The notes under the pieces are model-generated. The model did no database searches. It was not told the DNA's origin and was given only the letters and a program-made list of their open reading frames with translations. Position numbers and translations under genes: made by a program. From a virus: 49,994 nucleotides of DNA. Below, one piece after another: positions 2,385-49,994 of the stretch (the stretch's first letter is position 1; each line of letters opens with the position of its first letter). The stretch covers positions 1 through 49,994 of the IMG/VR virus record IMGVR_UViG_3300021478_000039; one strand, given 5' to 3'.

Positions 2385-3065
2385 ATGGATCTCCATAGAA
2401 ACGTTGCATGTTTTGCCCCCTTGAATCATTATAAATGTGATGAGATACATTTTTTCACAAAGTACCCTACTTATGAATTCATTAAAGATGTACCAGAAAT
2501 GATTGGCATTTCTTATAATGAATTAGTCTTATGGTACTTGGAAAAGATGGAGCATTTAGGTTGTAAATTTGTGCCGGTCATTCCGAATATTGAGGATGAT
2601 AGCCAAATTGCTAGGCTTACAGCCTGTGTTAGTTCTGGATTCAGAATTATAAATGAATTTGGAATGCCCCATATACTGATGAAAGCTACTATCATTCGCT
2701 ATATTCAAGAATATCCAAACATGCTAGTGGCTTGGTATAAGTTATTACAATTATATCCTGATTTAGCTTTGTCGGATGCTCGGACTTATTCATCCTTTGG
2801 TATTGCTAATGCTGGGGGGAATCCTCTGGGGTTAGATTTTAAGGGACAAAATCAAATTTGTAATCCGGGACATACTCTATTTGCTAATGCTTGTAATACA
2901 GTTTACAAACTGCCCTCATTTCAGGCTGCTTTATCTGGCAAAAGAAAAATAGGTGTTCGTGCTCTTGATATTGCTACAGCAGTAGATTCACAATTCTTTC
3001 CTAATCGGCCTTATGGGTCTAGTATGACACCCCTAATTGAATGGATAATCAATAATGTCGAATGA
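2385..3065 (+). CDS. Hypothetical protein at the head of the amidotransferase pair
   Basis: 226 residues from ATG 2385, which has a strong GGAGGT at 2373-2378 spaced six bases. An in-frame ATG at 2337 would add 16 residues but lacks a binding site. Mostly helical middle; a later Gly/Asn-rich segment (FGIANAGGNPLGLDFKGQ) could be a ligand loop. No family recognised. It overlaps the class I amidotransferase by 11 bp (ATG at 3055), so the two are translationally coupled and probably functionally linked. Confidence 0.65.
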   Translation: MDLHRNVACFAPLNHYKCDEIHFFTKYPTYEFIKDVPEMIGISYNELVLWYLEKMEHLGCKFVPVIPNIEDDSQIARLTACVSSGFRIINEFGMPHILMKATIIRYIQEYPNMLVAWYKLLQLYPDLALSDARTYSSFGIANAGGNPLGLDFKGQNQICNPGHTLFANACNTVYKLPSFQAALSGKRKIGVRALDIATAVDSQFFPNRPYGSSMTPLIEWIINNVE

Positions 3066-3738
3066 TCTTTTACCAAAATTGTACGTAGTGGGAGGTTCTA
3101 TTGGCTACGCAAGTTACCTGCGTAGTAAGCCGGGCCGAAGTGTTCAGTTTGAGCTAACACAGAACCCAGCCCATGCGGATATTGCTCTCTTTACTGGTGG
3201 GGAAGATGTAGACCCTGCTACTTACGGGGAACAATGTAGCAAAACAACTCATTATACCAATAGAGATAAACATGAAATTGAGATGTTCAATTTCTTTGTT
3301 GAGGAAGAAGTTCCAATGATTGGTATTTGTCGGGGTCTTCAGCTTTTTGCTGGTCTTAATGGGGGCCGACTGATCCAAGATACGACCGGCCATGCTGGAT
3401 CTAATCATGGAGTTATTTTTGAAGGCTATGACGATACTTGCATGGGTGATGAGTTTAAGGGATCTATTACTCTTCCTTATACAAGTGCCCATCATCAAAT
3501 GGTTGATCCAACACGCATTAAAGCTGACTGGAAAATCTTAGGCCGTAGTGAAACACGGCGTAGCCGCCATTATTTGGGAGGTGACGATAAAGAAATTCAT
3601 GGGGTGGACACTGAAATTGAATGTGTGTTCTTTCCAAAGACACAATGTCTAGGTATTCAAGGCCATCCCGAATGGATGGACCCTACTAGCCCCAGTGTGG
3701 AATTCTGGCGTCAATTGATTAAAACTTATCTATTGTGA
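3055..3738 (+). CDS. Class I glutamine amidotransferase, peptidase C26-like
   Basis: 227 residues. A triad of the class I glutaminase fold is visible: nucleophile Cys92 in GICRGLQ, and His204 and Glu206 in GIQGHPEW. FTGGEDVDPATYG near residue 47 resembles the gamma-glutamyl-GABA hydrolase (PuuD-like) branch. Such enzymes hydrolyse glutamine or gamma-glutamyl amides and can pass ammonia to a partner ligase. Within 5 kb lie an ATP-grasp ligase, two amidoligase-type enzymes and a class II amidotransferase, so it is probably part of one peptide-modifying pathway. The substrate is unknown. Confidence 0.85.
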   Translation: MSNDLLPKLYVVGGSIGYASYLRSKPGRSVQFELTQNPAHADIALFTGGEDVDPATYGEQCSKTTHYTNRDKHEIEMFNFFVEEEVPMIGICRGLQLFAGLNGGRLIQDTTGHAGSNHGVIFEGYDDTCMGDEFKGSITLPYTSAHHQMVDPTRIKADWKILGRSETRRSRHYLGGDDKEIHGVDTEIECVFFPKTQCLGIQGHPEWMDPTSPSVEFWRQLIKTYLL

Positions 3739-3744
3739 ATAACT

Positions 3745-4203
3745 ATGGAAAAATCATTTGAAGAAAAGATCGCAGCAGGACAAGCAATTCTGGACACTGC
3801 TATAAATCCAAATCCTGTCACTTTTAGATCCATCAAGGATGTTCTTGGATTCGACTGGACCAATCTTCGGATTAACCCAGAACAACCCTACTGTTATTTT
3901 TCACAGCTTATCGGTGTAGATCAGAATATCCCAGCGGAGTATCTTCCATTCCTTGTGAAAGCCGCACTTAAGTGTTCTAAAATTGCTAGGGATGAAGTGA
4001 TTCTTCAAGTTTCTATTATCAATCATGAAGTTGGTTGGGTAAAGAAATTGGAGTATCTTCGTTCTCTTCCGGGTGTGGCTATTACTCAAGTGAAACGAAA
4101 TTCTGGAGGTAATCATTATTACACGGCATATTCATGCTTAGTTCCCGGCCCTAAGTATGTAACATTGGATGATGCACCGTTGTACCACAAAGATCGAGTT
4201 TAA
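3745..4203 (+). CDS. Hypothetical protein, paralogue of the 1670-2095 product
   Basis: 152 residues, starting seven bases after the amidotransferase stop. It shares the CYF-x-QL...PG-x-AITQVKRNSGG...Y-x-CLVP pattern with the 141-residue product of 1670-2095 and has its own N-terminal helix. The stop is followed at 4207 by the TTAACAGTGTTAA palindrome, as in its paralogue. Function unknown. The position inside the ligase island suggests a role there, by association only. Confidence 0.7.
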   Translation: MEKSFEEKIAAGQAILDTAINPNPVTFRSIKDVLGFDWTNLRINPEQPYCYFSQLIGVDQNIPAEYLPFLVKAALKCSKIARDEVILQVSIINHEVGWVKKLEYLRSLPGVAITQVKRNSGGNHYYTAYSCLVPGPKYVTLDDAPLYHKDRV

Positions 4204-4205
4204 TT

Positions 4206-4220
4206 TTTAACAGTGTTAAA
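4206..4220. promoter_or_regulatory. Operator-like palindrome upstream of the COOH-NH2 ligase gene
   Basis: TTTAACAGTGTTAAA lies three bases after a stop codon and ends three bases before the AAGGAG ribosome binding site of the gene at 4237. Same core as seven other sites. A bound protein here could block transcription into the ligase genes. Confidence 0.7.
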
Positions 4221-4236
4221 TAAAAGGAGTACTATC

Positions 4237-5031
4237 ATGCAACGCTACCAAAATATTACTGTCGGTTGCGACCCAGAATTTTTCCTGAAAGAGGCTGACG
4301 GGAATTTCATTGGGGCTTTCAAATTTCTTAGTGGGACTAAATGGCGTCCTGAGAGCATCGACGATGACGGCAGTGCAATTCTCCATGATAATGTCATGGT
4401 CGAATTCAACACAGCTCCAGCCAATAGCCGGGAGCAATTCATTGCTTCGGTAGATAAGGTTCTAAATCATCTACGTTTGCGCCTACCCGAAGATATCGAA
4501 TTCAGTTTCCTTCCTTCGGCCCACTTCCAACTGAATAAGTTGCGCAGCCGGGCTGCCAAAGAATTTGGATGCGAACCAGACTTCAATGCGTGGATGGGGG
4601 GTGAGCGTAATCCAGCTATCCATTGTGATGACCGGACTCTGCGCACTAGTGGAGGACATATTCATGTAGGATTTGAAGATTCCGATAAAGAAGCTCGTCT
4701 GAGTCTCATCCAACATATGGATGTGTTCCTCGGGATTCCGTCTATTCTGTTGGATAAAGCTGGATCTGAACGCCGCTTGATGTACGGAAAGGCCGGCGCA
4801 TTCCGTCCAAAGCCTTATGGAGCAGAATACCGAGTGCTCTCCAACTTCTGGTTACAATCTCAGGAATTGAAGGGATGGGCTTTTGATGCTACGTTGGAAA
4901 CAATTGGTCAACTCAATGAAGGTTTCTGTCTTGATGCTGAAGATATTGAGTTGATTGTGCCAACGATCAACAATAGCGATTATAAGTCAGCCGAATATTT
5001 GATTAATAAGTATCATCTTCCAATGGTGTAA
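4237..5031 (+). CDS. phiEco32-type COOH-NH2 ligase (type 2)
   Basis: 264 residues from ATG 4237, with AAGGAG at 4224-4229. Motifs of the glutamine-synthetase-like phage ligases are in order: GCDPEF (10-15), an acidic DGSAILHDNVMVEFN block (44-58), TSGGHIHVGF (137-146), SERRLMYGKAGAFR (177-190) and YGAEYRVLSNFW (194-205). The acidic and His residues would bind Mg-ATP and the carboxylate. Family members are predicted to join an amine to a carboxyl group in an ATP-dependent reaction; the natural substrates are not established. It is the first ligase of the island, directly after an operator-like palindrome. Confidence 0.85.
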   Translation: MQRYQNITVGCDPEFFLKEADGNFIGAFKFLSGTKWRPESIDDDGSAILHDNVMVEFNTAPANSREQFIASVDKVLNHLRLRLPEDIEFSFLPSAHFQLNKLRSRAAKEFGCEPDFNAWMGGERNPAIHCDDRTLRTSGGHIHVGFEDSDKEARLSLIQHMDVFLGIPSILLDKAGSERRLMYGKAGAFRPKPYGAEYRVLSNFWLQSQELKGWAFDATLETIGQLNEGFCLDAEDIELIVPTINNSDYKSAEYLINKYHLPMV

Positions 5032-5043
5032 TCGGAGCCTAGC

Positions 5044-5658
5044 ATGTGGAATTACCAAGATACAGAATGTACGTCTGAAGACATGGGCCGTAAGTTTAAT
5101 GGCTCTTGGGTAAATCTGGATAAAATCGGCATTGCTCAAATCGACTCATTTGACGATGACGGATTTTATACTAGACTTGATGATGGAAATGAAAAGTATT
5201 ATAAACGTTCTGAGTTCAAGATTATCTCTGAATATCCAGATGTTGGACAGATGGTGAATATTCGTGGGACCGCACATTACATTTTGCGAACTCCTCGCCG
5301 CCAATGGATAGCTGGACTGACCATTGATACTCTTAGTTCTGAGTGTCCAACAACAGGTAAAGCAATCGGACGCTTGACTCGGGAAACCGTAAATAGTCTT
5401 TTCCATCCAGAGTATGTACCATTGGATATAGCATACAATGCTGTTATCAAAAAAGTGGGAATTAGCATGGCATTTACTCCTCTCTATTGGCTTATCAATA
5501 TGGATGGGAAATCTGTGCAACTGTGGCGGCGCGCTGTTGAGGTAGGTACTATCATAAAAAATGATGATATTTACTCCATCAATATCCACGACTTCTCAAT
5601 GTCTCTGACACAAGAACTTAAGGATGATCTTAAAAATGCCAAGTACACCATTAGCTAA
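5044..5658 (+). CDS. Hypothetical protein between the two amidoligase genes
   Basis: 204 residues, RBS-like CGGAG upstream, starting 12 bp after the ligase stop and overlapping the next ligase gene. The N-terminal 70 residues are acidic with short beta strands (FDDDGFYTRLDDGNEKYYKRSEF), suggesting a small beta-barrel. The C-terminal half is mixed. No family recognised. The conserved position between two ligases suggests a substrate-carrier or accessory role, by inference only. Confidence 0.65.
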   Translation: MWNYQDTECTSEDMGRKFNGSWVNLDKIGIAQIDSFDDDGFYTRLDDGNEKYYKRSEFKIISEYPDVGQMVNIRGTAHYILRTPRRQWIAGLTIDTLSSECPTTGKAIGRLTRETVNSLFHPEYVPLDIAYNAVIKKVGISMAFTPLYWLINMDGKSVQLWRRAVEVGTIIKNDDIYSINIHDFSMSLTQELKDDLKNAKYTIS

Positions 5659-6850
5659 GATTTTCAGAAATCGATTGGGAGATTGGCGAGAGCCAGCATT
5701 TACCCAAGAAACAATTGGGCAATACTCAAAGAATAAGGATATTCCAAATATTACAGCTGGATCATTAGCTGGAATTGAGTTTGAGATTGAAAAATGCGAT
5801 ACACATCATCTTGTAGATCAATATCCACGAGAGGCAGCCCGTATTTTTAATAGTCTCTGGAATATTACCCACGATGGTTCTTTGCGTAATAATGGTCTGG
5901 AATTTATTACCAAGCCATTATCTGGGAATAATTTGTCATTTGCACTTCAGATGCTGGACAATTATACTAAAGCTGTCTATCCAGAATGTCGTCCTAGTGG
6001 GCGTACTGGAATTCATGTGCATGTTAATGCTCTTGACATTAACACAGCTCAATTATTTGCTTGGATAAGTCTTTACCAGATTTTTGAAAAGCAACTGTAT
6101 CGTTTGTCGGGGGGCCGGGATAAGAATTTATTCTGCCTGCCAACTTGGGCTTGGGATGGTAATATTAAAAGTGCTATTCAGTATTTTGTTCTACGTAAAG
6201 ATGATGGTGTCTCAGCGGCAAACCAACTTGCCGGACAGGGTTTAAAATATGCTGGTCTAAATACCCGTACTTTGCAAGAACATGGTACTCTTGAATTCCG
6301 GCAGATGCATACCACTAGAGATATGGCAAAGATTGCTCAATGGGCTGATATGTTGATTCGTATCAAGAAGTCCGCTGTATCTCAAGTAACAGAGATGGAG
6401 AGTCTTATCAAATTCTGGGAGAAACTTTCGGAATTAAATACGAATTCCGAATACTATCAACTAATGCACCAAGTATTTGGAGATGCTAGACCATTATTGG
6501 AAATGCAGGGCTACGATTCTGATATGGCTGCGGGTGTTATTCAGGTTAAGGAATGCTTGATTACATACCAACGTGCCTTAAAGAATCCACCTAAAGAAGT
6601 CCCAGCTGCACAACCACCACCGCAAAGGAATATTTTTAGAGGGCCGTCTCGACGAGACTATGAAATAGCTATTGAGCAAGCTAGGACTCAAATAATTAGA
6701 TATGAGCTTACCTTAGCTGCTGAACGACACGGGCGTAATGACCCCGCCCGAATTCATGATTTGACTCTGCAAATAGATCAACAACGATCAAGAATTATTA
6801 CTTGGCAAGGGGTTATAGCTGAAATGCCAGACCAACCTGTAGCAGGATAA
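5636..6850 (+). CDS. Amidoligase_2 family enzyme with C-terminal coiled-coil extension
   Basis: 404 residues from ATG 5636; an alternative ATG at 5624 adds four residues. Signature motifs of the amidoligase_2 group: GIEFEIE (46-52), DGSLRNNGLEF (80-90), GIHVHVN (125-131), YAGLNT (205-210) and GTLEFRQ (217-223). These enzymes share the glutamine-synthetase-like ATP-dependent ligase fold. After about residue 300 come a Pro/Gln linker and a charged helical tail (EIAIEQARTQIIRYELTL-like) suited to oligomerisation. The gene overlaps the preceding one by 23 bp and is followed 12 bp later by the class II amidotransferase. The substrate is unknown. Confidence 0.85.
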   Translation: MPSTPLAKIFRNRLGDWREPAFTQETIGQYSKNKDIPNITAGSLAGIEFEIEKCDTHHLVDQYPREAARIFNSLWNITHDGSLRNNGLEFITKPLSGNNLSFALQMLDNYTKAVYPECRPSGRTGIHVHVNALDINTAQLFAWISLYQIFEKQLYRLSGGRDKNLFCLPTWAWDGNIKSAIQYFVLRKDDGVSAANQLAGQGLKYAGLNTRTLQEHGTLEFRQMHTTRDMAKIAQWADMLIRIKKSAVSQVTEMESLIKFWEKLSELNTNSEYYQLMHQVFGDARPLLEMQGYDSDMAAGVIQVKECLITYQRALKNPPKEVPAAQPPPQRNIFRGPSRRDYEIAIEQARTQIIRYELTLAAERHGRNDPARIHDLTLQIDQQRSRIITWQGVIAEMPDQPVAG

Positions 6851-6862
6851 TTAAGGATACTT

Positions 6863-8119
6863 ATGTGTGGAATTGTGGGGTTTATAAATAAAGATGGTCT
6901 TTCTTCAGTTCGTTTGGAGCAATGTTTCAAACAACTGTTGATTGTAGATCAACTACGTGGCCAGGATGCTACTGGTGTGGCTTCTCTTGGTAAAGATGGG
7001 AAACGAGACTGGGTTAAAACTCCAACTCTACCAGAGGAATTCCTCCAACATAAAGATGTGCATGAGTTCTTCCGTAAATTCCATGGAGATGGTTTTGCTA
7101 TTGGGCATAATCGAGCTCGTACCCATGGAAACAACACAGAAAATAATGCACACCCGTTTGAAGTCGGAGATATTCTTGGTGTCCATAATGGAACTATTCA
7201 TAATAAATATGATATTTGTGATAAAGGTCATATGTATGAGGTAGATAGCCATGCTTTCTTTGCGGGTGTATCCGAGAATGGCATTAAAGAAACCATCAAA
7301 GCTTCGGATGGGGCCTTCTCTGTTGTATATATTAACACAAAAGAAAAGACGATTAACTTCGTTCGTAACGAAGAGCGTCCTATGTATATGTTAGAAGTAA
7401 TGGAGCCGGGTTGGAGTAAGGATGCTCCTGATCGTGAACACCTATTGTTTGGTTCCGAATTGCTTATGCTTATGTGGGTTGCTACACGTAGTGGTTTCCG
7501 TACTGGAAAACATTATGAAACAGAACCATACAAACATTACTCTTTTGCCATGGGAGAAGAGAAGCCAACAATTTCTCAGATGGAGAAGTATGTAAAAAAG
7601 CAATACGAATACCATGGTGGTCGGAATATTGGGAAAACATCTGTATGGCGTCATGGTAAGCTAGTCTCCTCTGAGACTATTATGTTGCCTAACAATGTCC
7701 CAAACAATCGCCAAAGTGCTTTGACTACAGCAATGCCCACAGATTTTAGTTCAGTTGGTTTCTTTTCCAATAAAGATATTGACGGAAATATTAAAGCTGC
7801 TGTTGCAAAAATCTGGAATACAACCCACAAAGAATCAGTAGTTAGTTTTGTAGTAACTGAAGCTATTGATCTTCAGGCTAGTATGCAATTAATTGGTAAG
7901 CTGGCTGGCCGCAAGAAAGATGGTCTTCCGATTATGGTGTCCACAATTGTAGATAAGGATTTCTATAGTACAATCAAAAGTAGTAGTGCAATTCTTCAAG
8001 CTCGTGTTACGCACAAAGGTTGTTCGATGGATAAAAAAGGTTTGGAATTGATTGTTAAAGACCCAATGATTTTGGTGTACTCAACTAATGATGGGGAGTC
8101 TATCAATGCTGAATGTTAA
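6863..8119 (+). CDS. Class II glutamine amidotransferase (Ntn, GATase II)
   Basis: 418 residues beginning MCGIVGF, so Cys2 becomes the N-terminal nucleophile after Met removal. Family motifs follow: RGQDATG (32-38), GHNRARTHG (81-89), NAHPF (95-99) and VHNGTI (107-112). The glutaminase domain covers about residues 1-220. The C-terminal 200 residues do not show the sugar-isomerase domains of GlmS, so this is not glucosamine synthase. Probably it supplies ammonia, or transfers an amide, within the ligase pathway. It overlaps the ATP-grasp gene by 14 bp. Confidence 0.85.
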   Translation: MCGIVGFINKDGLSSVRLEQCFKQLLIVDQLRGQDATGVASLGKDGKRDWVKTPTLPEEFLQHKDVHEFFRKFHGDGFAIGHNRARTHGNNTENNAHPFEVGDILGVHNGTIHNKYDICDKGHMYEVDSHAFFAGVSENGIKETIKASDGAFSVVYINTKEKTINFVRNEERPMYMLEVMEPGWSKDAPDREHLLFGSELLMLMWVATRSGFRTGKHYETEPYKHYSFAMGEEKPTISQMEKYVKKQYEYHGGRNIGKTSVWRHGKLVSSETIMLPNNVPNNRQSALTTAMPTDFSSVGFFSNKDIDGNIKAAVAKIWNTTHKESVVSFVVTEAIDLQASMQLIGKLAGRKKDGLPIMVSTIVDKDFYSTIKSSSAILQARVTHKGCSMDKKGLELIVKDPMILVYSTNDGESINAEC

Positions 8120-8876
8120 AATATTCCCACACAATATTGGATCAGAAGGGGCCCGAGCTTTAGCCCGTGGTCTTGATGTTCTTCGTATTCGTAAAGATGG
8201 GAATTTTGTAGCTCGAACTGGGACTACTATCATAAATTGGGGAAATCAAATATTTCCTAAATGGCGTGTGTCTCGACGTGGTGGTAATTTAACAGTGTTA
8301 AATAAGCCTGAAGCCGTGGCACGGGCTATAAATAAGATTGCAGCTTTTCAAGCATTTGAGGCTGCTGGGGTGAGTATTCCTAAATATACTCTAACACAAC
8401 AGGAGGCTCGTGGTTTTCTTGATAATGATGGCATCGTTGTTTGTCGTACCATTGTTTCTGGTCACGCTGGCAAAGGGATTGTTGTTGCTCGTAAAGAAGA
8501 AGAGATCGTAGCTGCCCCACTTTACACGAAACATATCCGTCATAAAGAAGAATATCGAGTACATGTAGTTCGTGGCCAAGTAATTGACTATGCTCAGAAG
8601 AAAAAACGTAACGGCACTGATCCAGATATTCTTGTTAGAAGCCACGGAAACTGGATTTTTAGTCGAGAAGGTGTCACCCTACCACCGGATGCTATTACGC
8701 AGGCTATAGCGGCTGTAAAGGCCCTTGGCTTGGATTTTGGGGCCGTGGACATTGGTTATCGTGTCAAAGAAAGTAAAGCATTTGTATTTGAGGTGAATAC
8801 AGCCCCCGGATTTGAGTACGGAACTACTACTCAACGATCTTATACACGAGTATTCAAAGAACTTCTAGGAGTGTAA
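8106..8876 (+). CDS. ATP-grasp ligase, RimK-like
   Basis: 256 residues from ATG 8106 (GGGGAG at 8092-8097). ATP-grasp features: nucleotide-binding strand and glycine loop CRTIVSGHAGKGI (113-125), EEYRVHVV (148-155), and the metal-binding end FVFEVNTAPG (226-235) with Glu229 and Asn231. These enzymes form an acyl-phosphate on a carboxyl group and join it to an amine, as in RimK or D-Ala-D-Ala ligase. Last enzyme of the amidotransferase/amidoligase island. The TTAACAGTGTTAA palindrome lies within codons 61-66, which is unusual. Confidence 0.85.
   Translation: MLNVKIFPHNIGSEGARALARGLDVLRIRKDGNFVARTGTTIINWGNQIFPKWRVSRRGGNLTVLNKPEAVARAINKIAAFQAFEAAGVSIPKYTLTQQEARGFLDNDGIVVCRTIVSGHAGKGIVVARKEEEIVAAPLYTKHIRHKEEYRVHVVRGQVIDYAQKKKRNGTDPDILVRSHGNWIFSREGVTLPPDAITQAIAAVKALGLDFGAVDIGYRVKESKAFVFEVNTAPGFEYGTTTQRSYTRVFKELLGV
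8287..8303. promoter_or_regulatory. Operator-like palindrome inside the ATP-grasp gene
   Basis: ATTTAACAGTGTTAAAT, a perfect 17-bp palindrome around a central G, within the coding sequence. The encoded residues (NLTVLN) are not a known ATP-grasp motif. A DNA-level constraint is therefore plausible, for example an internal operator or roadblock. Confidence 0.65.
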
Positions 8877-8877
8877 T

Positions 8878-9111
8878 ATGCGTTGTCAGGCATGTAATAA
8901 GAATTTAACAGATGCTGAGTCCACACGTAAAGATACACATGGTCAATATAAAGACATGTGTACTAAATGCGATAACCTTATCGATGACGTGCAAATGACA
9001 GCACGCGAGGATGATGTTATGCCAATTATGGAAGATAATGACGAACATGATGATCTTTTGGGGCTATCTCTAGAAGATATTCAATCTCTTGATTATTCTG
9101 ATGATAAGTAA
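8878..9111 (+). CDS. Small zinc-ribbon protein with acidic tail
   Basis: 77 residues. Two CxxC knuckles (CQAC near residue 3, CTKC near residue 33) predict one zinc ribbon. The C-terminal 35 residues are strongly acidic (EDNDEHDD, DYSDDK). Starts one base after the ATP-grasp stop, with AGGAG upstream. Possibly a nucleic-acid or polymerase-binding adaptor, by inference only. Confidence 0.7.
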   Translation: MRCQACNKNLTDAESTRKDTHGQYKDMCTKCDNLIDDVQMTAREDDVMPIMEDNDEHDDLLGLSLEDIQSLDYSDDK

Positions 9112-10880: not shown

Positions 10881-11438
10881 ATGACAAAGTCAGTTTGGAA
10901 AAATGAAGTAGATAATTTAATTGCTCTGGATAAATCTGGCATGAATTTATCTGATATTGCAGATATATATCATGTGTCTAGACAAAGAATGAGTCAAGTG
11001 TTTAACAAGTTTGATCTAGAGATAACTAGTAAGCATGTAAAACGAGAAGCTAAACGAGTAGCCTATCATGCAAAGTGGGGTGATCGTGGCCAGGATCTTT
11101 ATGATATTAAACGATCTAAATGGAGATTAAAAAAGGCCAATGCACTTAGGGCTGGGATTGATTTCTCAATCCAATTTTCTGAGATTGATTTTCCTACTCA
11201 TTGTCCAGTTCTTGGAATTAAACTTGACTATGAGAATGAATCTAAGAAAGAAAATAGCCCATCCTTTGACCGTAAAGATAAGACCAAGGGATATGAAGTT
11301 GGTAATGTGGGAATCATATCATTACGAGCCAACCGTATAAAAAATGATGGCTCTGCAACAGAACACAGGTTGATAGCTGATTACATGGAGGCCGATGATA
11401 CTATCACCAAACAGCGCAGTTTTAACACTGTTAATTAA
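10881..11438 (+). CDS. HTH plus HNH/His-Me-type nuclease-like protein
   Basis: 185 residues with AAAGGA upstream. The N-terminal 50 residues contain a helix-turn-helix (LSDIADIYHVSRQRMSQVF). A basic linker follows, then a C-terminal region with CPVLGI, PSFDRKDKTKGYEVGNV and SLRANRIKNDG. That order is typical of phage HNH or endonuclease-VII-like homing nucleases (DR-x-D...GY-x-x-GNV). It has its own promoter and interrupts the primase-helicase order, fitting a mobile insertion. It overlaps the helicase start by 44 bp. It could also act as a regulator through the HTH. Confidence 0.7.
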   Translation: MTKSVWKNEVDNLIALDKSGMNLSDIADIYHVSRQRMSQVFNKFDLEITSKHVKREAKRVAYHAKWGDRGQDLYDIKRSKWRLKKANALRAGIDFSIQFSEIDFPTHCPVLGIKLDYENESKKENSPSFDRKDKTKGYEVGNVGIISLRANRIKNDGSATEHRLIADYMEADDTITKQRSFNTVN

Positions 11439-12654: not shown

Positions 12655-12781
12655 ATATCGTGAACCAAATCGAGAAGAATTTAAAGAATTAAAACGGAAA
12701 TACCCCGGTGATAACTGGAAGCAAGAACGGAAAGCTTTCAAGAAGATCGTGCAACGTATGCGTCGAGAGAATCCCCAATGA
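12644..12781 (+). CDS. Small basic protein between helicase and polymerase
   Basis: 45 residues, about half Lys, Arg, Glu or Asp (REEFKELKRKYPG...WKQERKAFKKIVQRMRREN). It overlaps the helicase end and stops one base before the polymerase ATG. Highly charged helical peptide. Packing and codon use support it; the function is unknown. Confidence 0.55.
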   Translation: MSNKYREPNREEFKELKRKYPGDNWKQERKAFKKIVQRMRRENPQ

Positions 12782-12782
12782 C

Positions 12783-13988
12783 ATGCGCGTACTAACGTTT
12801 GATAACGAAACAACCATAAGGAATAAAGGTAATCCCTTTACACGAAGTAATTTCTTGTGTACAGTGGGTATCCTAGTAGTCGAAGATGGAATAGAGATAT
12901 TCTATCGAGATCTAAACTTTTTAACAGAACCCCACCAAGAACTTCTGGACACAATCCAAAAAGAACTTGATTTGGCTGACCTGATTATCGGGTTTAATAT
13001 TAAGTTTGATCTTCATTGGCTACGCCGATATGGTATTACCTTTGATGATGCTAAAGTATGGGATGTACAGGTAGCGGAATTTATTATCTCTAACCAGAAA
13101 AATACATATCCGTCTCTGGATGATACCGGAGAGAAGTATGGACAAGGCCGTAAGCTAGATATAGTTAAAACTGAGTACTGGGATAAAGGAATTGATACCC
13201 CAGATGTACCAGCCTATATACTAGCAGAATATCAAGAACAGGATGTTCGCCTTACATATTTATGCTATTTGTACCAAATAGCCCTATTAAATGAGCTTCC
13301 ATTAAAGCATCGATTAATAACTTTGGCATGCCAGGATCTGTTGGTCCTCGAAGAGATGGAATGGAATGGATTAAAATATGAATCGGAAAAATCCCTATTA
13401 TTGGGAGATGATCTCCAAAGAAGCACACAAGACCTCGATGAGCGACTTCGTAGTCTGTTCCCTGGTATTCCTATTAATTGGAATAGCGGCGATCATCTTA
13501 GTGCTGTTCTCTTTGGTGGCCGGATTGTGGAGCGGAGGCAGATCCCTACTGGCGTATATAAAACCGGGATCAAAGCAGGACAAACTAAACTAGGATGGAC
13601 TGAGGTACAATATGATTTACCGAGATTGGTCGAACCAAATAAAAGTGATGAACTTTCATCCACAAAGGGGTTTTCGAATGAGGATGCGATTCTCAGAAAA
13701 GGTTCGAGGATGTATGCGACCAATGAGGGTGTCCTTAAATCCCTCAAATCTACGAGTAAGGCCAAAGAGATTATTGGAATTATTTTGGAGAGGTCTGAGA
13801 AGGAGAAACTTAGGGGCACCTACTATCATGGAATCCCAAAACTATGCGAAGAAATGGATTGGGAACCTAACATGATCCATGGACAACTCAATCAGGTTGT
13901 AGCAGCAACAGGAAGGCTAAGTGCGACGAAACCAAATCAGCAGAATATGCCTCCCGAGTTCGATGCCCTTTTAATTACGAGGTTTTAG
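12783..13988 (+). CDS. Family A DNA polymerase, N-terminal part (exonuclease, thumb and start of palm)
   Basis: 401 residues from ATG 12783. The 3'-5' exonuclease site is complete: Asp7 and Glu9 in FDNET, Asp76 in FNIKFDLHW, Tyr150 and Asp154 in YQEQDVRLTY. The polymerase domain begins, reaches the conserved TGRLSATKPNQQNMP, then stops at TAG after LLITRF, just before motif A. The rest of the palm and fingers is in a separate ORF at 14406. An intact proofreading site and intact downstream motifs argue for two polypeptides that assemble, not a dead gene. Confidence 0.88.
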   Translation: MRVLTFDNETTIRNKGNPFTRSNFLCTVGILVVEDGIEIFYRDLNFLTEPHQELLDTIQKELDLADLIIGFNIKFDLHWLRRYGITFDDAKVWDVQVAEFIISNQKNTYPSLDDTGEKYGQGRKLDIVKTEYWDKGIDTPDVPAYILAEYQEQDVRLTYLCYLYQIALLNELPLKHRLITLACQDLLVLEEMEWNGLKYESEKSLLLGDDLQRSTQDLDERLRSLFPGIPINWNSGDHLSAVLFGGRIVERRQIPTGVYKTGIKAGQTKLGWTEVQYDLPRLVEPNKSDELSSTKGFSNEDAILRKGSRMYATNEGVLKSLKSTSKAKEIIGIILERSEKEKLRGTYYHGIPKLCEEMDWEPNMIHGQLNQVVAATGRLSATKPNQQNMPPEFDALLITRF

Positions 13989-14054
13989 ATGACCGCAACA
14001 GATATTATCATTATAAGCGTAATACTTATTTTTATTGGATTAGTATTTTTCTAG
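13989..14054 (+). CDS. Tiny single-span membrane peptide inside the polymerase split
   Basis: 21 residues starting directly after the polymerase stop codon (TAGATG). After MTATD it is entirely hydrophobic (IIIISVILIFIGLVFF), one predicted membrane helix. Below the usual gene-calling limit. The tight packing with two further membrane peptides supports it, but it may not be expressed. Confidence 0.4.
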   Translation: MTATDIIIISVILIFIGLVFF

Positions 14055-14062
14055 GAGATACC

Positions 14063-14155
14063 ATGTTTAATTATTCATTAATTATTGTTTATATTCTCAT
14101 TTTTGGAGTTGGTGTTGTCCTTGGTTATAGTCTTGGTTCTACGGACGAATTCTGA
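14063..14155 (+). CDS. Tiny membrane protein inside the polymerase split
   Basis: 30 residues, preceded by TAGGAG seven bases upstream. MFNYSLIIVYILIFGVGVVL forms one membrane helix, followed by a short polar tail ending in DEF. Its TGA overlaps the next ATG (TGATG), indicating translational coupling. Confidence 0.5.
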   Translation: MFNYSLIIVYILIFGVGVVLGYSLGSTDEF

Positions 14156-14253
14156 TGCTAGCTATTATTCTCGGAGTTATTGCCCTCGTACTAGCAATCA
14201 TTGGTCTTCTTATATGTGATGGACTTCCTGATTCTAACGATGAATGGCAATAA
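14155..14253 (+). CDS. Tiny membrane protein inside the polymerase split
   Basis: 32 residues: one hydrophobic helix (AIILGVIALVLAIIGLLI) and an acidic tail (DGLPDSNDEWQ). Coupled to the gene before it by TGATG. Its last codons overlap the start of the Cys-rich gene. Holin-like or regulatory membrane peptides look like this, but no assignment can be made. Confidence 0.5.
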   Translation: MLAIILGVIALVLAIIGLLICDGLPDSNDEWQ

Positions 14254-14416
14254 AATAAAGAAGTTGAACTGTAAGGAATGTCCACACTATTGTGAACCCA
14301 GAGAAGGGTATATCATGGGAACATGTATTGAGGTACATTCCTATCAGCATGGCTTAGACAAAATTGAGGAGTGTCCATTGATCCTCCAAAAACAAATAGA
14401 AATAGATGCTCTGTAA
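14240..14416 (+). CDS. Small Cys-rich protein inside the polymerase split
   Basis: 58 residues from ATG 14240. CKECPHYC near the N-terminus plus two later Cys (GTCIEV, EECPL) suggest a metal site. Overlaps the previous gene by 14 bp and the polymerase C-terminal ORF by 11 bp. No family recognised. Confidence 0.55.
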   Translation: MNGNKIKKLNCKECPHYCEPREGYIMGTCIEVHSYQHGLDKIEECPLILQKQIEIDAL

Positions 14417-15128
14417 TATTGATGCAAAAGGCCTCGAAGTAGTTGCAGCAGCATATCTTAGTCAGGATAAAGTTCTCGTACAAGAGGTACGAGACAAGAT
14501 AGATCTACATGGGGATAATCAGAAACGATTTGGACTTCCAACTCGGGTTATCGCCAAGGTATTTAAATTCCGATTAATTTATGGTGGTAGTGCTTACAGT
14601 TATTCTGTTGATTCAGATTTTGCTGAAGTTGGATTTAGTCAAAAAAGATGGCAACAGGTTATCGATGAGTATTATGATAAATATCAAGGTCTAGCCACTT
14701 GGCACACACAGATTGTTCAGGAAGTTACATTAACAGGTAGGATTAACCTACCTACAGGGCGGCAGTTTGATTACCAACCCTTCGAGTCTCCTAACGGAGA
14801 TATTAAATGGCCCCGCACTACCATTCTTAATTATCCTGTTCAAGGTTTGGGGGCTGACCTTGTTATGCTTGCTAGGATTAGTTTTAGGAATCGCTTACGT
14901 AAGCTAGGACTTCGGGCTCTTCTTATATCAACTGTACATGATTCTATTGTCGTGGATTGTCCTGATAAAGAAGTAGACATTGTATGTCAATTAGCCCATG
15001 ATGTATTTCGGGATATACCAGCTAATTTCCAGAAAATGTTTGGAGTGGAGTTTAATCTTCCGATGACAGCAGAGGTATTAATTGGAAATAATATGGGAAA
15101 TATGAAGGAGTGGAATGTTAAAAACTAA
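14406..15128 (+). CDS. Family A DNA polymerase, C-terminal part (palm and fingers)
   Basis: 240 residues starting at motif A: NIDAKGLE with Asp6 and Glu11 (T7 DASGLE equivalent). Motif B is present as RVIAKVFKFRLIYGG (Arg47, Lys51, Tyr59). Motif C reads VHDSIVVD (His178, Asp179), with Ser in place of the usual Glu of HDE. Both catalytic aspartates survive. It continues the 12783-13988 product after a 417-bp interruption. The start codon lies inside the preceding Cys-rich gene, and the codon before it is TAG. Activity would require association with the N-terminal polypeptide. Confidence 0.87.
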   Translation: MLCNIDAKGLEVVAAAYLSQDKVLVQEVRDKIDLHGDNQKRFGLPTRVIAKVFKFRLIYGGSAYSYSVDSDFAEVGFSQKRWQQVIDEYYDKYQGLATWHTQIVQEVTLTGRINLPTGRQFDYQPFESPNGDIKWPRTTILNYPVQGLGADLVMLARISFRNRLRKLGLRALLISTVHDSIVVDCPDKEVDIVCQLAHDVFRDIPANFQKMFGVEFNLPMTAEVLIGNNMGNMKEWNVKN

Positions 15129-49588: not shown

Positions 49589-49994
49589 ATGCTTATCGAA
49601 ATTAAGAATACCTATACAGGTAATGTCCTCTTTGCTCATGAAGCCAAGGAGAATTCTCTAAGGATTACTTTGACAATGGCTAGGAAAGCTCGTGCCAGCC
49701 TGCGTGATGCCGACCTGTGTGGTGCCAACCTGTATGGTGCCAACCTGCGTGATGCCGACCTGTGTGGTGCCAACCTGCGTGATGCCGACCTGTGTGGTGC
49801 CAGCCTGCGTGATGCCGACCTGTGTGGTGCCAACCTGTATGGTGCCAACCTGTGTGGTGCCAACCTGCGTGGTGCCAACCTGTATGGTGCCAGCCTGTAT
49901 GGTGCCAACCTGCGTGATGCCGACCTGTATGGTGCCAACCTGCGTGATGCCGACCTGTGTGGTGCCAACCTGTATGGTGCCAACCTGCGTGATG
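49589..49994 (+). CDS. Pentapeptide-repeat protein, N-terminal part (3' partial)
   Basis: Starts at ATG 49589 with TTGGAG seven bases upstream. A unique 37-residue N-terminus ([20 protein letters not shown]...) is followed by nearly 20 pentapeptide repeats ([15 protein letters not shown]), running off the window end in frame. Joining base 49994 to base 1 keeps the frame and loses only one residue of the repeat pattern, so this is very likely the same gene as 3-584. The whole protein would be about 330 residues. Confidence 0.85.
49700..49994 (+). repeat. 15-bp tandem repeats coding pentapeptides (about 19.7 units)
   Basis: The same three unit variants as at 3-257, continuing to the last base. 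Together they form an array of at least 36 units across the contig junction. Confidence 0.95.

Follow-up and report, generated by a model that had tools for sequence, protein, structure and literature searches.

The 49,994-base IMG/VR virus record IMGVR_UViG_3300021478_000039 (one strand, 5' to 3'; taken in full and called the window here) carries a set of genes for amide-chemistry enzymes at 2385-8876. This set is almost certainly a member of a known phage amidoligase cassette. A first-pass annotation had described it as a peptide-ligase island; the island is not novel, for the cassette is already published and annotated in more than 300 sequenced phages. What is new, besides the assignments made below for three of its proteins, is a pattern of co-occurrence. 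The COOH-NH2 ligase of the cassette (CNL) co-occurs with a class I amidotransferase-superfamily gene of the peptidase C26 type (GAT1), with a gene for a gamma-glutamyl cyclotransferase (GGCT; PF06094), or with both. On balance, we favour for this member of the cassette a pathway that would lead by way of a gamma-glutamyl intermediate to an amide or a peptide.

The co-occurrence was scored on loci from two IMG/VR scans, whose 160 best-scoring loci overlap in part. Once near-copies had been taken out (80% CNL identity) and loci without adequate flanks set aside, 68 CNL loci were left, including some contigs from genome collections, isolates, and the window itself. GAT1 was the only one of the two in 39 loci, GGCT in 11, both were found in 18, and no locus had neither. 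Of 21 flank-adequate loci without CNL, none had GAT1 or GGCT. The four CNL loci with neither gene were all on short stretches that failed the flank criterion. When whole records were scored, GAT1 and/or GGCT were present in 29/29 records with CNL versus 0/11 without. No GGCT was found in the window record, where GAT1 is present instead; GGCT is an optional gene of the cassette and stands in relatives either in place of GAT1 or alongside it. For example, locus L136 (3078-5887) has GGCT (PF06094, 6.7e-20) between the upstream gene and the class II amidotransferase gene, which is the GAT1 slot of sister phages. At L082 (4590-5192), the GAT1 catalytic Cys is replaced (GIGRG), and the record has GGCT. 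Counts by phage name, which are totals with no per-record match, gave 16 GAT1 and 105 GGCT for 121 CNL in Pseudomonas phages and 93 GGCT for 93 CNL in Escherichia phages.

The cassette itself is widespread. Searches of phage records with tblastn returned 310 records for the ATP-grasp ligase (GRASP), 322 for the class II amidotransferase (GAT2), and 313 for CNL, with a nearly equal make-up by genus; the phages infect Pseudomonas, Escherichia, Vibrio, Aeromonas, Proteus, Klebsiella, and other hosts. Work on the phiEco32-type, LUZ24, and Zobellviridae amidoligase cassette is reportedly to be credited to Iyer (2009) and Hardies (2013). Annotated neighbourhoods with the same set occur in Klyazma, T5S1, CW02, O4, UFV-P2, 172-1, Privateer, and LAh_6. 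These annotations, together with a published description of a seven-gene "peptidoglycan modification cassette" in phiEco32, 7-11, PA11, tf, LUZ24, PaP3, CW02, and RIO-1 (PMC5498523), bear out the relation to the phiEco32 set that the first-pass annotation had drawn. The same account is repeated in PMC11945000, where LUZ24-like phages carrying the cassette are reported as therapy candidates. The literature that we found on the cassette names no product.

The window resembles the phiEco32-type, LUZ24, and Zobellviridae cassettes in enzyme families and strand, in the close linkage of the genes, and in their early position. All four core genes were present in 66/68 of the non-redundant loci and the core genes lay on one strand in 68/68, so the genes are linked in relatives rather than scattered; the exact gene order of the window recurred in 25/68. 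The minimal form of the cassette consists of an amidoligase, a class II amidotransferase, and an ATP-grasp enzyme only, and CNL is an added module on this form. A gene of the family of the 204-residue protein (U204) is also found between CNL and the second amidoligase (AMD) in UFV-P2, CW02, O4, 172-1, and Privateer. Compared with the phiEco32-type cassette, the window has GAT1 without GGCT, a lineage-specific 152-aa gene (U152), and a highly divergent 226-aa upstream gene (U226), and its GAT2 lacks the CxxC pairs present in many relatives. The core order GAT1-CNL-U204-AMD-GAT2-GRASP is the same in Alcaligenes phage vB_Af_QDWS535 and in IMG/VR loci L012, L048, L091, and L171, with identities of only about 35-48%; unlike the window, QDWS535 and L012 carry GGCT besides. 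A second architecture, without U204 and nearly always with hydrolase plus cyclotransferase, was seen in L095, L110, L152, L154, and their relatives. A cellular model operon was also sought: 84,980 species genomes yielded 11 contigs, all from metagenome-assembled genomes and with no metabolic context. These contigs are probably phage-derived because most hold further cassette genes in phage orders.

All genes that had been claimed in the window were found as plus-strand open reading frames (ORFs) at their expected positions, with the CNL start corrected to an ATG (Table 1). The set had been counted as seven genes; those seven stand, and an eighth, U152, had been overlooked. The eight ORFs are densely packed and co-directional. 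They likely form one operon because the junctions between them range only from −35 to +36 bp. The layout of the window is podovirus-like, with early genes on the plus strand and terminase, portal, and capsid genes on the minus strand, and the cassette lies upstream of the primase and polymerase genes. None of the eight proteins has a hydrophobic N-terminus; therefore, the cassette probably acts in the cytosol. PADLOC returned no match to anti-phage defence families.

Table 1. Genes of the amidoligase cassette in the window.
Gene	Coordinates	Strand	Description
U226	2385..3065	+	226 aa; probably belongs, in diverged form, to the ~300-aa family found directly upstream of hydrolase or ligase in relatives
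GAT1	3055..3738	+	Putative peptidase C26 / PuuD-like gamma-glutamyl hydrolase, class I amidotransferase superfamily; Cys92-His204-Glu206
U152	3745..4203	+	152 aa; this genome only; paralogue of 141-aa ORF 1670-2095
CNL	4237..5031	+	phiEco32-like COOH-NH2 ligase type 2, 264 aa
U204	5044..5658	+	204 aa; conserved CNL partner, predicted small-barrel fold
AMD	5624..6850	+	Amidoligase_2 enzyme, 408 aa
GAT2	6863..8119	+	Class II (Ntn) glutaminase domain over residues 1-245; C-terminal part unassigned
GRASP	8088..8876	+	RimK/R2K-like ATP-grasp ligase, 262 aa

Pfam and PHROG families and catalytic residues confirmed five intact amide-chemistry enzymes. Catalytic residues were intact at every position inspected, the ligase sites included, and are kept among relatives. 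GAT1 matched PF07722 (Pfam; E 1.5e-17), the class I amidotransferase/peptidase C26 family. The triad named in the first-pass annotation is present, as is the C26 signature (GxCRGxQ, SxHHQ, QxHPE). Among PDB sequences it resembles Lin1909 and PuuD, and its leading NCBIfam models were gamma-Glu-GABA and gamma-Glu-CDP-amidate hydrolases, both far under cut-off; the likeness to PuuD is at the superfamily level only (27.7 bits versus a 266-bit cut-off). By this C26/PuuD likeness, GAT1 looks like a gamma-glutamyl hydrolase and not like the ammonia donor that a class I amidotransferase would suggest.

CNL matched PF14395 (E 8.5e-13, 48.6 bits against a cut-off of 25) and phrog_3815 (6.7e-66), with motifs DPEF, VEFN, GHIHVG, and EYR intact. 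We take CNL to be a glutamine-synthetase-type enzyme, an assignment from established family knowledge rather than from direct profile support. AMD was barely over the cut-off of PF12224 (E 1.5e-4, 22.2 bits versus 22) and matched phrog_7469 (5e-39); its motifs IEFE, LEF, HVH, and LEFR are intact, and its family has 16 invariant columns, among them E52, E54, H131, H133, E224, and R226. GAT2 belongs to PF13522 (E 1.7e-14), a class II amidotransferase family, and has Cys2 together with R84, T87, N109-G110, and D128. Its model is confident for the glutaminase domain only and there resembles the GlmS/PurF glutaminase; no synthase domain was found, and residues 250-418 were modelled at low confidence. 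GRASP matched phrog_2599 (4.7e-74) and is a RimK/R2K-like ATP-grasp enzyme in which K83, R120, E155, D221, E235, and N237 are present. It scored 26.6 bits against the R2K_2 profile PF18299 (cut-off 26.2) and was also over the cut-off of RimK PF08443; the nearest solved structures by sequence were RimK-type PDB entries. A GCS/GS ancestry of the ligases was considered as well: profile comparison and a PDB sequence search gave nothing usable, and no PF04107 (GCS2) match was found in the record.

How might these enzymes work together? Pathways that protect and deprotect with a gamma-glutamyl group are known from PuuA/PuuD and from BtrJ/BtrG of butirosin synthesis. The cassette shares with the PuuA/PuuD gamma-glutamyl-putrescine pathway the logic of an ATP-dependent ligase and a C26 hydrolase, but is without genes for a PuuA-like glutamine synthetase, an aminotransferase, or a dehydrogenase. 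We propose the following scheme, to which we give about an even chance. Early in infection, in the host cytosol, CNL aided by the barrel-fold U204 would use ATP to join the gamma-carboxyl of glutamate to an amine. AMD and the RimK-like GRASP would form further amide bonds, and GAT2 would supply ammonia from glutamine or handle the gamma-glutamyl group, which GAT1 (GGCT in other phages) would then remove or recycle. The product would most likely be a small metabolite, peptide-like or an amide, or else an envelope precursor in modified form.

Expression in a relative bears on the timing: the cassette genes are the first to be transcribed in infection by PSA-HP1, whose host responds with a strong induction of sulfate assimilation and cysteine synthesis (PMC7082346). 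These observations are only a lead, but they agree better with an early pathway to a metabolite than with virion tagging. More tentatively, the cassette may be a phage pathway devoted to a gamma-glutamyl metabolite not seen before, which would alter host physiology early, with a PuuD-like hydrolase or the unrelated GGCT interchangeably releasing the product of CNL and its barrel partner.

Several points weigh against a gamma-glutamyl pathway. The scheme and its chemistry are predicted from sequence rather than drawn from biochemistry, and the putative gamma-glutamyl ligase activity of CNL rests on family knowledge and co-occurrence. Comparison by hhalign of the CNL profile with E. coli YbdK (probability 2.8) and with AMD (4.4) did not show relatedness, and GAT1 may yet prove to be an ammonia donor. 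The association of CNL with GAT1/GGCT has a Fisher p of 2e-5 that ignores relatedness; the CNL tree has only 3-4 independent changes in GAT1 presence, so a sign test cannot reach 0.05 and no significance can be claimed on the tree. The GAT1 changes on this tree were all in the expected direction or without difference, and none contradicts the rule.

Comparison of relatives suggests that the cassette may work via gamma-glutamyl intermediates rather than by tagging virus particles. The co-occurrence rule points to enzymes that may act together, namely CNL and U204, then GAT1 or GGCT, and turns the label "peptidoglycan modification" into a testable claim on gamma-glutamyl intermediates. This matters for a cassette that is carried by more than 300 phages of many genera, LUZ24-like therapy candidates among them.

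The published alternative, modification of peptidoglycan, is put forward as a hypothesis in PMC5498523, PMC10580990, and PMC11945000, none of which cites an experiment. The ligases would build atypical amide bonds into the stem peptides or their cytosolic precursors and GAT1/GGCT would trim gamma-Glu bonds, so that the wall is altered to block superinfection or material is recycled. Gamma-D-Glu bonds do occur in peptidoglycan, and the early expression in PSA-HP1 would suit this reading too. However, no cassette protein appears to be exported, and GGCT and PuuD-type enzymes are known for small gamma-L-glutamyl compounds. We consider peptidoglycan modification possible but doubtful; it is compatible with a gamma-glutamyl pathway if a cytosolic precursor of the wall serves as acceptor.

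Protein tagging is unlikely. In this reading, GRASP would extend a protein of the host or the virion by added residues, much as RimK extends S6, and the other enzymes would build or cap the tag. The RimK/R2K similarity of GRASP fits such a role, and a part for R2K enzymes in modifying host proteins during phage conflicts has been predicted (PMC4431377). However, we found no obligate acceptor. A candidate acceptor or carrier was the 77-aa CxxC...CxxC protein with an acidic tail encoded directly after GRASP (8878-9111; PHROG matches weak), whose family lies near the cassette in 90 fetched loci. When independent loci were compared, this small Zn-finger ORF followed the primase (43/44) and not the cassette (19/44). 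The position of the set in the early region and the fact that PSA-HP1 transcribes its set first make virion proteins, one of the targets envisaged at first, less likely; nothing points to DNA, another of those targets. Least probable of all is glutamine/nitrogen scavenging, in which two glutaminase-like enzymes and the ligases would adjust the balance of glutamine to glutamate in the service of nucleotide synthesis, with no dedicated product: two amidotransferase-superfamily enzymes and the adjoining replication genes would fit, but two amidoligases and an ATP-grasp enzyme kept together with intact ligase motifs imply a specific product, and presence of GGCT goes with loss of GAT1.

U204 and U226 had been suggested as the carrier or target of the set. 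U204 (phrog_11055, 7.7e-6) is instead, by its distribution and model, probably a conserved partner of CNL and not an evident carrier: its family was found in 102 loci, and it behaves as a CNL partner because 100 of these carry CNL. A stricter rule, a U204 with every CNL, did not survive once more loci were included: U204 was detected in 50/68 CNL loci, though U204 without CNL is very rare. The AF2 model of U204 (pLDDT 89.8) is an SH3/Tudor/Sm-like small barrel with the same fold as predicted proteins of cassette-bearing phages, such as H9D1D2 of Salinivibrio phage CW02, and has no carrier-like features. Matches in the PDB were to small-barrel pieces only (Hfq/Sm, Tudor, UvrD C-terminal domain; best Z 5.5), and Foldseek gave nothing below 0.001, an absence that is no proof of a new fold.

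U226 had no match in Pfam, PHROG, NCBIfam, phage tblastn, or IMG/VR. A profile of 36 relatives from the equivalent position, built without U226, caught it weakly, at E 0.001 among 12,475 ORFs (17.5 bits; shuffles reached at most 6.4). The family of this upstream gene (~300 aa) adjoins GAT1 or CNL in 33/37 loci. Since the profile catches U226 and the position agrees, U226 is probably a strongly diverged member of this family, and we dropped the idea of an orphan carrier, which had arisen from the lack of any close relative. An alternative in-frame ATG at 2337 would give a protein of 242 aa. U152 matched its 141-aa paralogue in the same genome (phmmer E 1.4e-10); no relatives of either were detected elsewhere.

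Elsewhere in the window, an ORF at 10881-11438, between the primase and DnaB helicase genes, has a helix-turn-helix and an HNH-like stretch and is possibly a homing endonuclease. The family A DNA polymerase (12708-15128) comes in two pieces, the break falling within the polymerase domain (model positions 53-132 and 154-379), and three micro-ORFs with one hydrophobic stretch each, plus a small ORF of ~60 aa, lie between the pieces. No Rfam families were found in the window. One 15-bp tandem repeat (ACCTGTGTGGTGCCA) is present at both record ends, at 1-256 (about 17 copies) and at 49692-49991 (about 20 copies). Because the same repeat occurs at both ends, the genome is probably near-complete, although it is classed as linear.

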